64,000 nt of DNA from Arcobacter defluvii (GTDB lineage: Bacteria; Campylobacterota; Campylobacteria; Campylobacterales; Arcobacteraceae), in assembly GCF_013201725.1 (NCBI RefSeq), contig NZ_CP053835.1, positions 2,480,001 through 2,544,000 of the forward strand, written 5' to 3'. How positions within the stretch are numbered: the stretch's first letter is position 1; each line of letters begins with the position of its first letter. Position numbers and translations under genes: made by a program. Below, one piece after another: positions 40,452 through 56,064 of the stretch. Below the pieces are notes generated by a model, which saw nothing but the letters and a program-made list of their open reading frames with translations, was not told the DNA's origin and ran no database searches.

Positions 40452-41333
40452 TTATAATCCTACTAATTGATTTAATCTTAAATCTTCATTTCCAATTTTT
40501 TTTATTTTTAATCCAAATTTTCCTTCAACTATCACTGCTTCGCCTTCACCTATTCTCACACCATTTACTAAAATTTCTAAAGGTTCATTAACCATCTGCT
40601 CAAGTTCAATAATTTCACCAACATCCCATCTTAATATATCTTTTAATAAAACTACTTTTGTTCCTAATCTAACGCTCAATTTCAATTTCACATTATATAA
40701 AAGTTCAAGATTTTTTGATGTATGTACTGAAGATGAAGAAGTTGTATTTACATTAGTTGGTATACTTACAGAAGGGATGATTTTATCTTTAACTTCAGTT
40801 TCATCTGAAGCTATTACTCCTGTAATTGAAGAAAAAAAGGGTAAAATTAATTCATCAAAACTAATAATTATTGGTAATTTTTCATTTCCTAATGAAATAA
40901 TAAATTCATACGCATTCTTTTTTGAAGACAAACTTGAACCTTCGACTATAGAAGAACTTTTTATCTCCGATTTAATTGCTCCAATATCTGGAAGTCCTTG
41001 TGCATTTACAGAAGTACAAAAACTTCCACAAATATTTGAAATAATTTCATTTACTGCATCTGTAATTTCATCATCAATATGTTCCTTTAAATCTCCCATT
41101 CCACCTAACATTAAATATTCAAATTTAGTTGCACTAAGAGTTGGAATGTAAAAATTTACTTCAGAAGATACACCTTTAAGATCAAACCTTGCACTACACT
41201 CTACTAATTGTGTAGAATCAAAATTTTCACTTACCAATTTTGTAACAGCATCTATTTGTGAATTTTTAGATAATAACTGTTCTAGTGTATTTGAAAGTTC
41301 ATCTTTAAATATATTTGATAAATCTGATGCCAA
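40452..41333 (-). CDS. fliY: FliY/FliN-type flagellar switch protein with CheC-like domain
   Basis: A 293-residue protein: an N-terminal CheC/CheX-like domain (about 1-185; DEITDAVNEIISNICGSF) and a C-terminal SpoA/FliN domain (about 210-290; LKLSVRLGTKVVLLKDILRWDVGEIIEL). It is likely part of the C-ring and may dephosphorylate CheY. The N-terminal CheY-docking peptide of FliY/FliM (EIDALL type) is absent. Start is TTG (41331-41333). A separate short FliN is at 48460. Confidence 0.85.
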   Translation of the reverse strand: MASDLSNIFKDELSNTLEQLLSKNSQIDAVTKLVSENFDSTQLVECSARFDLKGVSSEVNFYIPTLSATKFEYLMLGGMGDLKEHIDDEITDAVNEIISNICGSFCTSVNAQGLPDIGAIKSEIKSSSIVEGSSLSSKKNAYEFIISLGNEKLPIIISFDELILPFFSSITGVIASDETEVKDKIIPSVSIPTNVNTTSSSSVHTSKNLELLYNVKLKLSVRLGTKVVLLKDILRWDVGEIIELEQMVNEPLEILVNGVRIGEGEAVIVEGKFGLKIKKIGNEDLRLNQLVGL

Positions 41334-53376: not shown

Positions 53377-54324
53377 TTATTTATTGTTTGAAAATTCAGC
53401 TATCAATTTATCTAAATCATCACCTATTAAATCATCTGTGTCATCTCCATGAATATGTTTGGCAACAGCAATATCCTTAGAGTTACCATCATCTTCAAAT
53501 AAATTGTTTAGATATAAAGATAATTTTCTAATAACAGACATTACTCTTTCGATTTTTTGTCTATTTATATCATTAAATTGCATTAATTCCATTGCTTGAA
53601 AAATTTTATTATCTTCTTCATTTAATAAATTTTTTAAGTTAACTAATGAACTGTTCATTATATTTGCATTATGTAAATACCCATCAAAAACTTTTATGTT
53701 TGGAAATTTATTATTTAAAGAAGTTAATAAATTTATTTGAGAATTTATAAAATTTTCATATTCTTTAAAACTTTTTCTAATTTCATTATTGTTATCTAAA
53801 GTTAAACTTAAAACATCAAATATCTGAGAAACTTTTTCTTCAGAATCATTAGCAACTTGGGTAAGCTGATTAACAACTTTTGTATCTTTCTCAGCAGGCA
53901 AAGGAAAAACTCCTTCATTTATTTTTGTTGAAGTCCAATCTTTCACAATATCATCTTCTGATCTTTCAATTTTTTTTGTTTCTAAAGGTTCAGTTTTTAC
54001 TTCATCTTCAATAGGTAATATCTCTTCAACTGCTTCTTCTTTCGAAGGGCTTGATTCAATATCATTTAGTAAATCTTCTAACTCACTATTTTTTATAAAA
54101 CTATCAATTTCATTTTCATTAGTATTATTTTCATCAATTTTTGAAACAGATATTTCTTCTTCTGTATTTATATCTTCTTTTAAATCTTCCGTTTGAGATA
54201 ATAATTCTTCAATTTCTTTAGTATTCACTTTTGCTGTTTCAGTTACATCTTCAGATTCACTATTATCATCTGCAATGTCCAAACCATTCATTAAAGCTTC
54301 TATCTCTTCTTGACTCATACTCAT
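53377..54324 (-). CDS. cheZ: CheZ-like CheY phosphatase with FliM-like CheY-docking motifs
   Basis: A 315-residue cytoplasmic protein. The last third matches CheZ: AMELMQFNDINRQKIERVMSVIRKL (244-268), in which Asp252 and Gln256 match the catalytic D-x3-Q of CheZ. The end DDLDKLIAEF (302-311) resembles CheZ's CheY-binding tail. Unusually the N-terminus starts SQEEIEALMNGL (4-15), like the FliM peptide that binds CheY-P. Related motifs follow: TKEIEELLSQ (35-44) and NEIDSFI/SELEDLLNDI (71-89). The rest of 1-130 is acidic and probably disordered. It lies 14 bp after cheY. The likely role is dephosphorylating CheY-P at or near the motor. Confidence 0.75.
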   Translation of the reverse strand: MSMSQEEIEALMNGLDIADDNSESEDVTETAKVNTKEIEELLSQTEDLKEDINTEEEISVSKIDENNTNENEIDSFIKNSELEDLLNDIESSPSKEEAVEEILPIEDEVKTEPLETKKIERSEDDIVKDWTSTKINEGVFPLPAEKDTKVVNQLTQVANDSEEKVSQIFDVLSLTLDNNNEIRKSFKEYENFINSQINLLTSLNNKFPNIKVFDGYLHNANIMNSSLVNLKNLLNEEDNKIFQAMELMQFNDINRQKIERVMSVIRKLSLYLNNLFEDDGNSKDIAVAKHIHGDDTDDLIGDDLDKLIAEFSNNK

Positions 54325-54338
54325 GATAAGACCTTATA

Positions 54339-54710
54339 TTATTTTTTCAATACTCCATCAAGTTTTTCTTTCAAAACTTCTGCATTAAATGGCTTAACGA
54401 TATAATTATTAACTCCTGCTTTTAAAGCAGCAATAACCTCACCTTTTCCACCTTCTGTTGTAATCATTATTATTGGCGTTTTCTGATGTGTTCCCTCAGA
54501 TCTAACTTTTTTTACTAATTCTAAACCGTTCATATTTGGCATATTCCAGTCTGTTAGTATAACATCATAATGAGCTTCACTAAGTAATTTCCAAGCTTTT
54601 AATCCATCTTCAGCTTCTTCGAAATTTTCTCTAGCGAATCCTAATTGCATAACTACATTTCCAATGATTCTTCTCATTGTAGAGCTATCATCAACTATTA
54701 GAATCTTCAT
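54339..54710 (-). CDS. cheY: Chemotaxis response regulator CheY
   Basis: A 123-residue single receiver domain. Acidic pocket DD (7-8), phosphorylated Asp54 in ILTDWNMP, switch Thr84-Thr85 and Lys106 in VKPF are all present. I use the ATG at 54708-54710 rather than the adjacent TTG, because a GGGA lies at the right distance. It is the first gene of the long minus-strand array and is next to the CheZ-like gene. No CheA or CheW gene is in the window. Confidence 0.95.
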   Translation of the reverse strand: MKILIVDDSSTMRRIIGNVVMQLGFARENFEEAEDGLKAWKLLSEAHYDVILTDWNMPNMNGLELVKKVRSEGTHQKTPIIMITTEGGKGEVIAALKAGVNNYIVKPFNAEVLKEKLDGVLKK

Positions 54711-54713
54711 CAA

Positions 54714-55683: not shown

Positions 55684-56064
55684 ATGACCTTAGAAGAATT
55701 AAAAAAACTTAGAAAAGAAAATTTTTTAGCTCATAAAAAGAAAAAAAAAGCGTATTACTTAAAAAGTAAAATTGCTAAAAAAGAGATAGATTATGAAGCT
55801 GAACTTAATAATTTAAATTTTTTTTCTAAAATAAAAGAAATTGCCCATGAGCAAAAAAAATATATTGATGATAGAAAAGAATCAATAATATCTAAATTAA
55901 AAGAATATAAAAATTTAAAAAAAGAATATTATGAGCAAAATAAAGAAAAAATACTTGAATACAATAAAGAATATAGAGAAAGAAAAAAAGAAGAACTAAA
56001 AGCTTATAGAATAGAGTATTATAAAAGATTAAAAGAAAAACAAAATAAACTTGATAAAGAGTAA
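55684..56064 (+). CDS. Highly charged helical protein after flgG
   Basis: A 126-residue protein made mostly of Lys, Glu, Tyr and Asn, predicted to be one long helix or coiled coil. I do not recognise a family. It lies 22 bp after flgG and 5 bp before the next gene, so it is likely co-transcribed with both. The start (ATG 55684) has only a weak ribosome site. It could be an export chaperone-like or assembly protein, but this is speculation. Confidence 0.5.
   Translation: MTLEELKKLRKENFLAHKKKKKAYYLKSKIAKKEIDYEAELNNLNFFSKIKEIAHEQKKYIDDRKESIISKLKEYKNLKKEYYEQNKEKILEYNKEYRERKKEELKAYRIEYYKRLKEKQNKLDKE

Follow-up and report, generated by a model that had tools for sequence, protein, structure and literature searches.

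A FliM-like N-terminus and a candidate docking arm in a remote CheZ of Arcobacteraceae

We found that a protein encoded in a 64,000-nucleotide stretch of the Arcobacter defluvii genome (the whole stretch is called the window below) is a CheZ, remote from that of E. coli, and that its N-terminal region most resembles the CheY-binding peptide of the flagellar motor. The likeness is near-invariant in our sample of the phylum and yields a testable docking hypothesis. We lean towards the reading, drawn from sequence comparison, that the protein is a Campylobacterota motor CheZ whose disordered N-terminal tail would serve as a docking arm for CheY-P. Papers are cited by PMC number, from those parts of each that were accessible.

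A remote CheZ among flagellar genes

The cheZ gene sits within a flagellar gene cluster of a genome that forms a single contig of 3.02 Mb. By our reading of the translations, fliG-, fliF-, flgB- and flgF-like open reading frames (ORFs) lie to one side of it and a flgG-like ORF lies to the opposite side. Most named relatives of the protein, at 60-68% identity, come from Aliarcobacter and Arcobacter, which makes the genome Aliarcobacter-like. The earlier note had placed cheZ next to cheY, and indeed cheY comes first and ends 14 bases ahead of it (Table 1). The solved structure closest to the cheY product, 3gwg, is presumably that of H. pylori CheY. Judged by eye, the window CheY has W58, K119 and Y106 (E. 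coli numbering), FliM-binding residues named in PMC9321776; at the K91 position both it and 3gwg read Gly-Gly-Lys, so that the presence of this residue depends on the alignment.

We also note several other reading frames. A 126-residue Lys/Glu-rich ORF at 55684-56064 (plus strand), with just one sub-threshold Pfam match, is flanked by the flgG-like gene and by an ORF with a predicted-looking membrane segment. A FliY-like ORF at 40452-41333 (minus strand) matches CheX weakly (21 bits, under the cut-off), and its N-terminus lacks a FliM-like peptide. Finally, a 213-residue open frame (L221; G000:C1:1353211-1353438, minus strand) has CheX and CheC matches above the cut-offs and may be a second CheY-P phosphatase in the same cell.

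The family models find the window protein at a distance. It scores 124 bits with NF041271, whose cut-off is 350; this model matches all 45 members of our alignment (A1) at E up to 0.001, its cut-off is passed in just 23 of 298 genomes of the class, and that cut-off seems tuned to one genus. The Pfam CheZ model recognises E. coli CheZ (E 6.3e-77); it gave no match to the window protein at E up to 1 and matched 14 of the 45 relatives weakly (E up to 0.01); nor was there a Pfam match to CheC or SPOA domains in the window protein at E up to 1. When the PDB was searched with the window sequence alone, nothing was found up to E 10, and a search with the 45-sequence profile returned four rows, in which E. 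coli CheZ came third (E 0.62) after two SLD5 chains.

The earlier note had named Asp252 and Gln256 as CheZ catalytic residues, and both are present. In an hhalign comparison the window segment FNDINRQ was paired with E. coli FQDLTGQ (E 0.003, Prob only 10), and Asp252 and Gln256 are therefore the counterparts of the E. coli catalytic pair, which we take to be Asp143 and Gln147. The pair is found in 137 of 142 distinct CheZ sequences; the exceptions are L076, which lost the region at a contig end, L168 (D/K), L169 (Q/A), L170 (K/Q) and L171 (R/K). The H. pylori CheZ described by NF041271, presumably locus HP0170, is an ortholog of the window protein. Its catalytic pair is given as D189/Q193, and it is stated to dephosphorylate CheY-P (PMC11237671, accessible part).

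The AlphaFold2 model built from the 45 sequences (mean pLDDT 69.4, pTM 0.40) has helices at 5-12, 35-50, 79-90, 123-136, 146-206 and 211-277 (the hairpin) and 301-312, with a low-confidence linker between them. The four motif sites described below are isolated predicted helices of moderate confidence (pLDDT blocks 62-77), and the helix at 123-136 contains no core. Foldseek with this model placed E. coli CheZ (1kmi_Z) fifth (E 0.99) among other long-helix proteins; the Foldseek and VIA-align lists, dominated by unrelated long-helix proteins, were set aside as evidence of function.

Table 1. Positions in the window of cheZ, cheY and the regions of CheZ discussed in the text
Feature	Position	Strand	Basis
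cheZ, remote CheZ phosphatase, 315 aa, ATG start, stop codon 53377-53379	53377..54324	-	match of residues 70-312 to NF041271 Phos_CheZ at E 5.3e-36, short of the cut-off
cheY, likely CheZ substrate	54339..54713	-	closest solved structure 3gwg, E 8.5e-45
Residues 1-14, FliM-like peptide MSMSQEEIEALMNG	54283..54324	-	62/62 Arcobacteraceae; strict form in 71/80 other Campylobacterota; pN/pS 0.05 (2-14); predicted helix 5-12
Residues 35-46, second docking-like helix, core EIEELL at 37-42	54187..54222	-	core in 34/45 aligned orthologs; pN/pS 0.16 (flanks 0.62 and 1.06); predicted helix 35-50
Residues 72-74, EID counted in the earlier note	54103..54111	-	commonest residue in 0.18-0.24 of 45 sequences (E72 0.24; I73 and D74 0.18)
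Residues 79-90, third docking-like helix, core ELEDLL at 81-86	54055..54090	-	core in 37/45; pN/pS 0.38 (78-90); predicted helix 79-90
Residues 146-277, predicted long hairpin of two helices, half of a CheZ bundle	53494..53889	-	AlphaFold2 helices 146-206 and 211-277; 10-residue blocks 161 to 270 at mean pLDDT 89-97
Residues 252-256, DINRQ, catalytic Asp252 and Gln256	53557..53571	-	invariant in A1 (45 sequences); hhalign pairing with E. coli
Residues 301-312, C-terminal helix of the CheZ type, putatively CheY-binding, with core DLDKLI at 303-308	53389..53424	-	core in 44/45; pN/pS 0.15 (299-312); predicted helix 301-312

The FliM-like N-terminus and the sites in the linker

The likeness of the CheZ N-terminus, MSMSQEEIEALMNG, to E. 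coli FliM LSQAEIDALLNG, proposed in the earlier note, was upheld. The peptide matches E. coli FliM SILSQAEIDALLNG (its N-terminus: MGDSILSQAEIDALLNGDS) as well as the FliM of its own genome, AEFLSQDEIDALLD, and residues 4-12 follow the sequence SQ-x-E-I-D/E-A-L-L/M. The BLOSUM62 score of CheZ SQEEIEALM against E. coli FliM SQAEIDALL is 29, which the best-scoring segment reaches in 1 of 3000 protein shuffles, and the score against the same genome's FliM is 32, reached in 0 of 3000 shuffles. We searched the 3.02 Mb genome with a degenerate DNA pattern of the peptide, allowing up to two mismatches, and obtained 15 matches, four with one mismatch and nine with two; only FliM and cheZ matched without mismatch, and the remaining matches, where readable, lie inside unrelated-looking ORFs. 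The reversed pattern gave no match in the whole genome.

The peptide opens all 62 distinct Arcobacteraceae CheZ that were examined, and its strict form opens 71 of the 80 distinct CheZ sampled from the rest of the Campylobacterota; the nine that differ have near variants (such as MNQEELDALL, MTQEELETLM and MPQEEFDTLM), save the degenerate L171, and the core is kept in 78 of the 80. These counts retain L076 (at a contig end, without the catalytic region) and L171 (degenerate, with an internal stop in the match), and they are to be read with the way the sequences were collected: the 46 loci of the pattern search were found with six peptide patterns including MSMSQEEI, which favours the N-terminal peptide, and the NF041271 model used in collecting CheZ from other Campylobacterota also starts at the N-terminus. 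Among 97 Arcobacteraceae genomes with a match, L002-L030 scored best. The 80 others comprise L077-L106, the best-scoring 30 of 246 matching genomes, L122-L141, hand-picked for genus spread, and L142-L171, from 30 genomes chosen mostly for missing genera or weak scorers. Of the 45 members of alignment A1, one is the window protein and 44 come from the 46 loci, of which L035 (a near copy of L032) and L076 were omitted. No match was found with NF041271 at E 1e-10 in 52 of the 298 genomes of the class, nor with the CheZ search at E 0.001 in 7 of 104 Arcobacteraceae genomes. The FliM N-termini read SQ[DE]EID in all 31 loci, one of them from the window's own genome and the rest from the 30 best scorers among 58 genomes with a match; the FliM ORFs had been chosen by a looser form of this motif.

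The earlier note had called the protein a fusion. Since the peptide is present across the sampled Campylobacterota CheZ, we consider it most likely ancestral to Campylobacterota CheZ rather than a local fusion; a lineage-specific fusion was rejected on account of its spread over the phylum sample. We found no mention of a FliM-like peptide in CheZ in those parts of the open literature that we read, and it may have been noticed earlier elsewhere.

For the remaining sites we used a core expression, drawn up after the sequences had been seen: an acidic residue or Asn/Gln, Ile/Leu/Val/Met, an acidic residue or Asn, any residue, Leu/Ile/Met and Leu/Ile/Val/Met. Across the 45 aligned sequences the core occurs at residue 7 in 45, at residue 37 in 34, at residue 81 in 37 and at residue 303 in 44. 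Among 27 distinct genes of the same genus, pN/pS in the N-terminal half was 0.05 (residues 2-14), 0.62 (15-34), 0.16 (35-46), 1.06 (47-74), 0.38 (78-90) and 0.92 (91-128), and in the C-terminal half 0.15 (129-170), 0.51 (171-235), 0.14 (236-280, the catalytic region), 0.42 (281-298) and 0.15 (299-312). By these ratios, the linker, which is predicted to be disordered, is loosely constrained, and the internal sites (37-42 and 81-86) stand out in it as islands of constraint. The earlier note had counted recurring EIE/EID motifs at 35-44 and 71-89 and had looked to orthologs for their conservation: two of the three places, EIEELL and ELEDLL, are kept, and the third, EID at 72-74, is unconserved in the 45 sequences and was ruled out as a docking site.

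We counted cores in the linkers of all 142 distinct sequences (62 Arcobacteraceae and 80 others), with boundaries defined by the alignment. The 62 Arcobacteraceae linkers contain 119 cores, compared to a shuffle mean of 9.7 and a highest value of 20 in 500 shuffles; at least one core is found in 59 of the 62 and at least two in 45 (range 0 to 5), and three linkers have none. Among 18 Arcobacteraceae representatives of clusters at 60% identity, 15 have at least one core and 11 at least two. In contrast, no internal core was found in the 80 linkers of other Campylobacterota (1.1 expected), which have a median length of 37 residues compared to 114 in Arcobacteraceae. In the linkers of the 45 aligned sequences, the forward core occurs 87 times (shuffle mean 7.0) and a reversed-core control 30 times (shuffle mean 7.2, highest 16 of 1000 shuffles), with 23 of these 30 at most 7 residues from a forward site. 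Some of the excess is thus what any amphipathic helix would give, although the excess of the forward core is the larger one. The internal sites have no Ser-Gln start and share the core alone with FliM, and in the single window sequence their likeness to FliM does not exceed chance expectation (P 0.24 to 0.77); they are credible because they are conserved in orthologs, not through their score in one sequence.

Repeat-like units were noted in the linkers of L070, L071 and L075; that of L070 contains the unit (N)VDDILAGI twice, and that of L075 has five cores. The array in the linker may grow and shrink by repetition.

Some Arcobacteraceae also encode a second CheZ-like protein, a short one with open frames of 92-165 residues (ten were fetched, L210-L219). 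L210-L213 start with MTQEELDA, as does Helicobacter-type CheZ; L214, L216, L218 and L219 start with MKYEE or MNYEE, with no FliM-like peptide, and keep a C-terminal helix; L215 and L217 have neither pattern. Several of these genes lie near ORFs that read like chemoreceptors.

A proposed docking arm and its rivals

The earlier note had suggested that CheY-P could be captured by several sites, and this remains plausible. Each of the four helices would hold one CheY-P, on the face used by FliM and by the CheZ C-terminus, giving up to four docking sites per chain and up to eight per CheZ dimer. Docked CheY-P would be kept close to the two active sites of the hairpins, raising its local concentration for the phosphatase, and would be partly pulled off FliM, which binds the same face, so that CheZ would compete with FliM. 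In favour of a docking arm, predicted helices fall on all four candidate sites, with a low-confidence linker between, and the window CheY aligns well with 3gwg; the spread of the N-terminal peptide, the FliM N-termini, the constraint at the sites and the excess of cores speak for it as well.

In this scheme, ancestral Campylobacterota CheZ would have had its second docking site in the N-terminal peptide, and the internal copies would have been gained in Arcobacteraceae, a lineage argued to have swapped its F3 array for an F7 array. Specifically, Arcobacter is argued to have lost the F3 array and gained a lateral F7 array, keeping cheY and cheZ of F3 origin in its largest flagellar locus (PMC9321776, accessible part); in the window, cheY and cheZ are likewise among flagellar genes. 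The link between the internal copies and the F3-to-F7 change is a correlation in one lineage (n = 1).

The catalytic pair has been lost in two open genes of the genus g39 (family f2), L169 in genome G367 (Q/A) and L170 in genome G165 (K/Q). In both, the N-terminal peptide remains as a near variant and the C-terminal helix in variant forms (DEIQAIITSFG and NEIQAIITSFG) that the core expression does not match; cheY is present in the genomes with a broken-pair CheZ. One would expect the peptides to be retained in this way if docking served a purpose apart from catalysis. Within the same genus a third gene, L171 (G170), is degenerate, L165 and L167 keep the catalytic pair, and genome G162 gave no CheZ match.

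More tentatively, and with the balance somewhat against it, Arcobacteraceae CheZ may be a multivalent trap for CheY-P that takes hold of the face used by FliM, with four helices per chain here and up to seven in L075 (five in its linker). Besides hydrolysing CheY-P, such a protein would compete with the motor for it, and the switch-off would become steep or buffered. The docking helices would date from the takeover of the old F3 motor by a foreign F7 kinase array, and docking could outlive catalysis, as in the two g39 genomes.

A result from H. pylori counts against a strong role of the N-terminal peptide: CheZ without residues 1-39 is reported to be unaffected in phosphatase function and biofilm formation (PMC11237671, accessible part). 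The peptide is therefore dispensable for catalysis, and roles in speed, competition or place remain. As for place, the earlier note had thought that the peptide might bring the phosphatase near the switch, and this is not supported, for in FliM the motif is the CheY-binding site, not a rotor-binding one (PMC6946799), and the partner of the FliM N-terminus seen that could place a protein is FlhG (PMC12826062). We considered FlhG, a polar MinD-like ATPase, as the best rival partner to CheY-P: the peptide would mimic FliM to bind FlhG, CheZ would be positioned or regulated at the pole, and the C-terminal helix would handle CheY. We regard this as unlikely, and one reason is that the polar localisation of H. 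pylori CheZ is reported, in work of 2015 by Lertsethtakarn, to map to the central domain. Furthermore, this localisation needs ChePep (PMC11237671, PMC7750401), the accessible parts of the open literature searched hold no CheZ-FlhG interaction, and FlhG binding leaves the extra copies, which have only the core in common with FliM, unexplained. Nevertheless, FlhG does bind FliM through the FliM N-terminus in monotrichous bacteria, and FliY in Bacillus (PMC12826062), the independence of phosphatase function from residues 1-39 fits such a partner (PMC11237671), and a positioning role also fits the near-invariance of the peptide.

It is quite unlikely, in our view, that the tail helices instead associate with one another or have as partner a chemotaxis protein specific to Campylobacterota, such as ChePep or CheO, with the likeness to FliM arising by convergence on an acidic amphipathic helix. 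The C. jejuni CheO pulls down CheZ and FliM, not CheY (PMC9665402, accessible part), the sampled Campylobacterota CheZ and FliM both have such a peptide, and the enrichment of the reversed core points the same way; however, CheO also binds CheA and FliY (PMC9665402), the FliY-like ORF of the window has no such N-terminal peptide, and the full N-terminal match of Ser-Gln-Glu-Glu-Ile-Glu-Ala-Leu exceeds a generic helix. That the sites have no function, and reflect acidic linker composition and constraint at the translation start, we consider highly improbable. The linker is rich in Asp/Glu, the internal sites are not significant in the single sequence, and synonymous change is somewhat lower in codons 2-14 (pS 0.39 compared to 0.49-0.64), but the low pN/pS at the three sites compared to 0.62-1.06 between them, together with the excess of cores over shuffles, stands against this explanation, and the N-terminal result does so strongly. 

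Comparison with known systems

The E. coli CheZ, with which the window protein aligns at the catalytic Asp/Gln pair, has a C-terminal CheY-binding helix (QVDDLLDSLGF) and has neither a FliM-like N-terminus nor an acidic tail. Helicobacter-type CheZ above the NF041271 cut-off combine an N-terminal MTQEELDAL with a C-terminal helix DDIEALIASFG or near variants; the function of the N-terminal region of H. pylori CheZ was called unknown in 2024 (PMC11237671, accessible part). If the multi-site array acts as suggested here, multivalent capture of a substrate in chemotaxis switch-off would have a natural example in Arcobacteraceae, which would also show an old CheY-CheZ pair retuned for a foreign kinase.

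The N-terminal peptide of E. coli FliM has SQxEI(D/E)AL(L/M)NG in common with the window CheZ, on the rotor in FliM and on the phosphatase here. In Bacillus, FliY is a phosphatase that carries an EIDAL peptide. The B. subtilis protein, a CheY-P phosphatase with an EIDAL-type domain (PMC6946799, PMC12826062, accessible parts), is thus a parallel to the window CheZ, but it is a CheC-type phosphatase with a SPOA domain, built into the rotor, whereas the window CheZ has no CheC or SPOA match; the FliY of Campylobacter and Helicobacter are described as having no phosphatase active sites (PMC6946799, accessible part). The CheZ described here adds a case in which phosphatase and motor appear to use one docking code.
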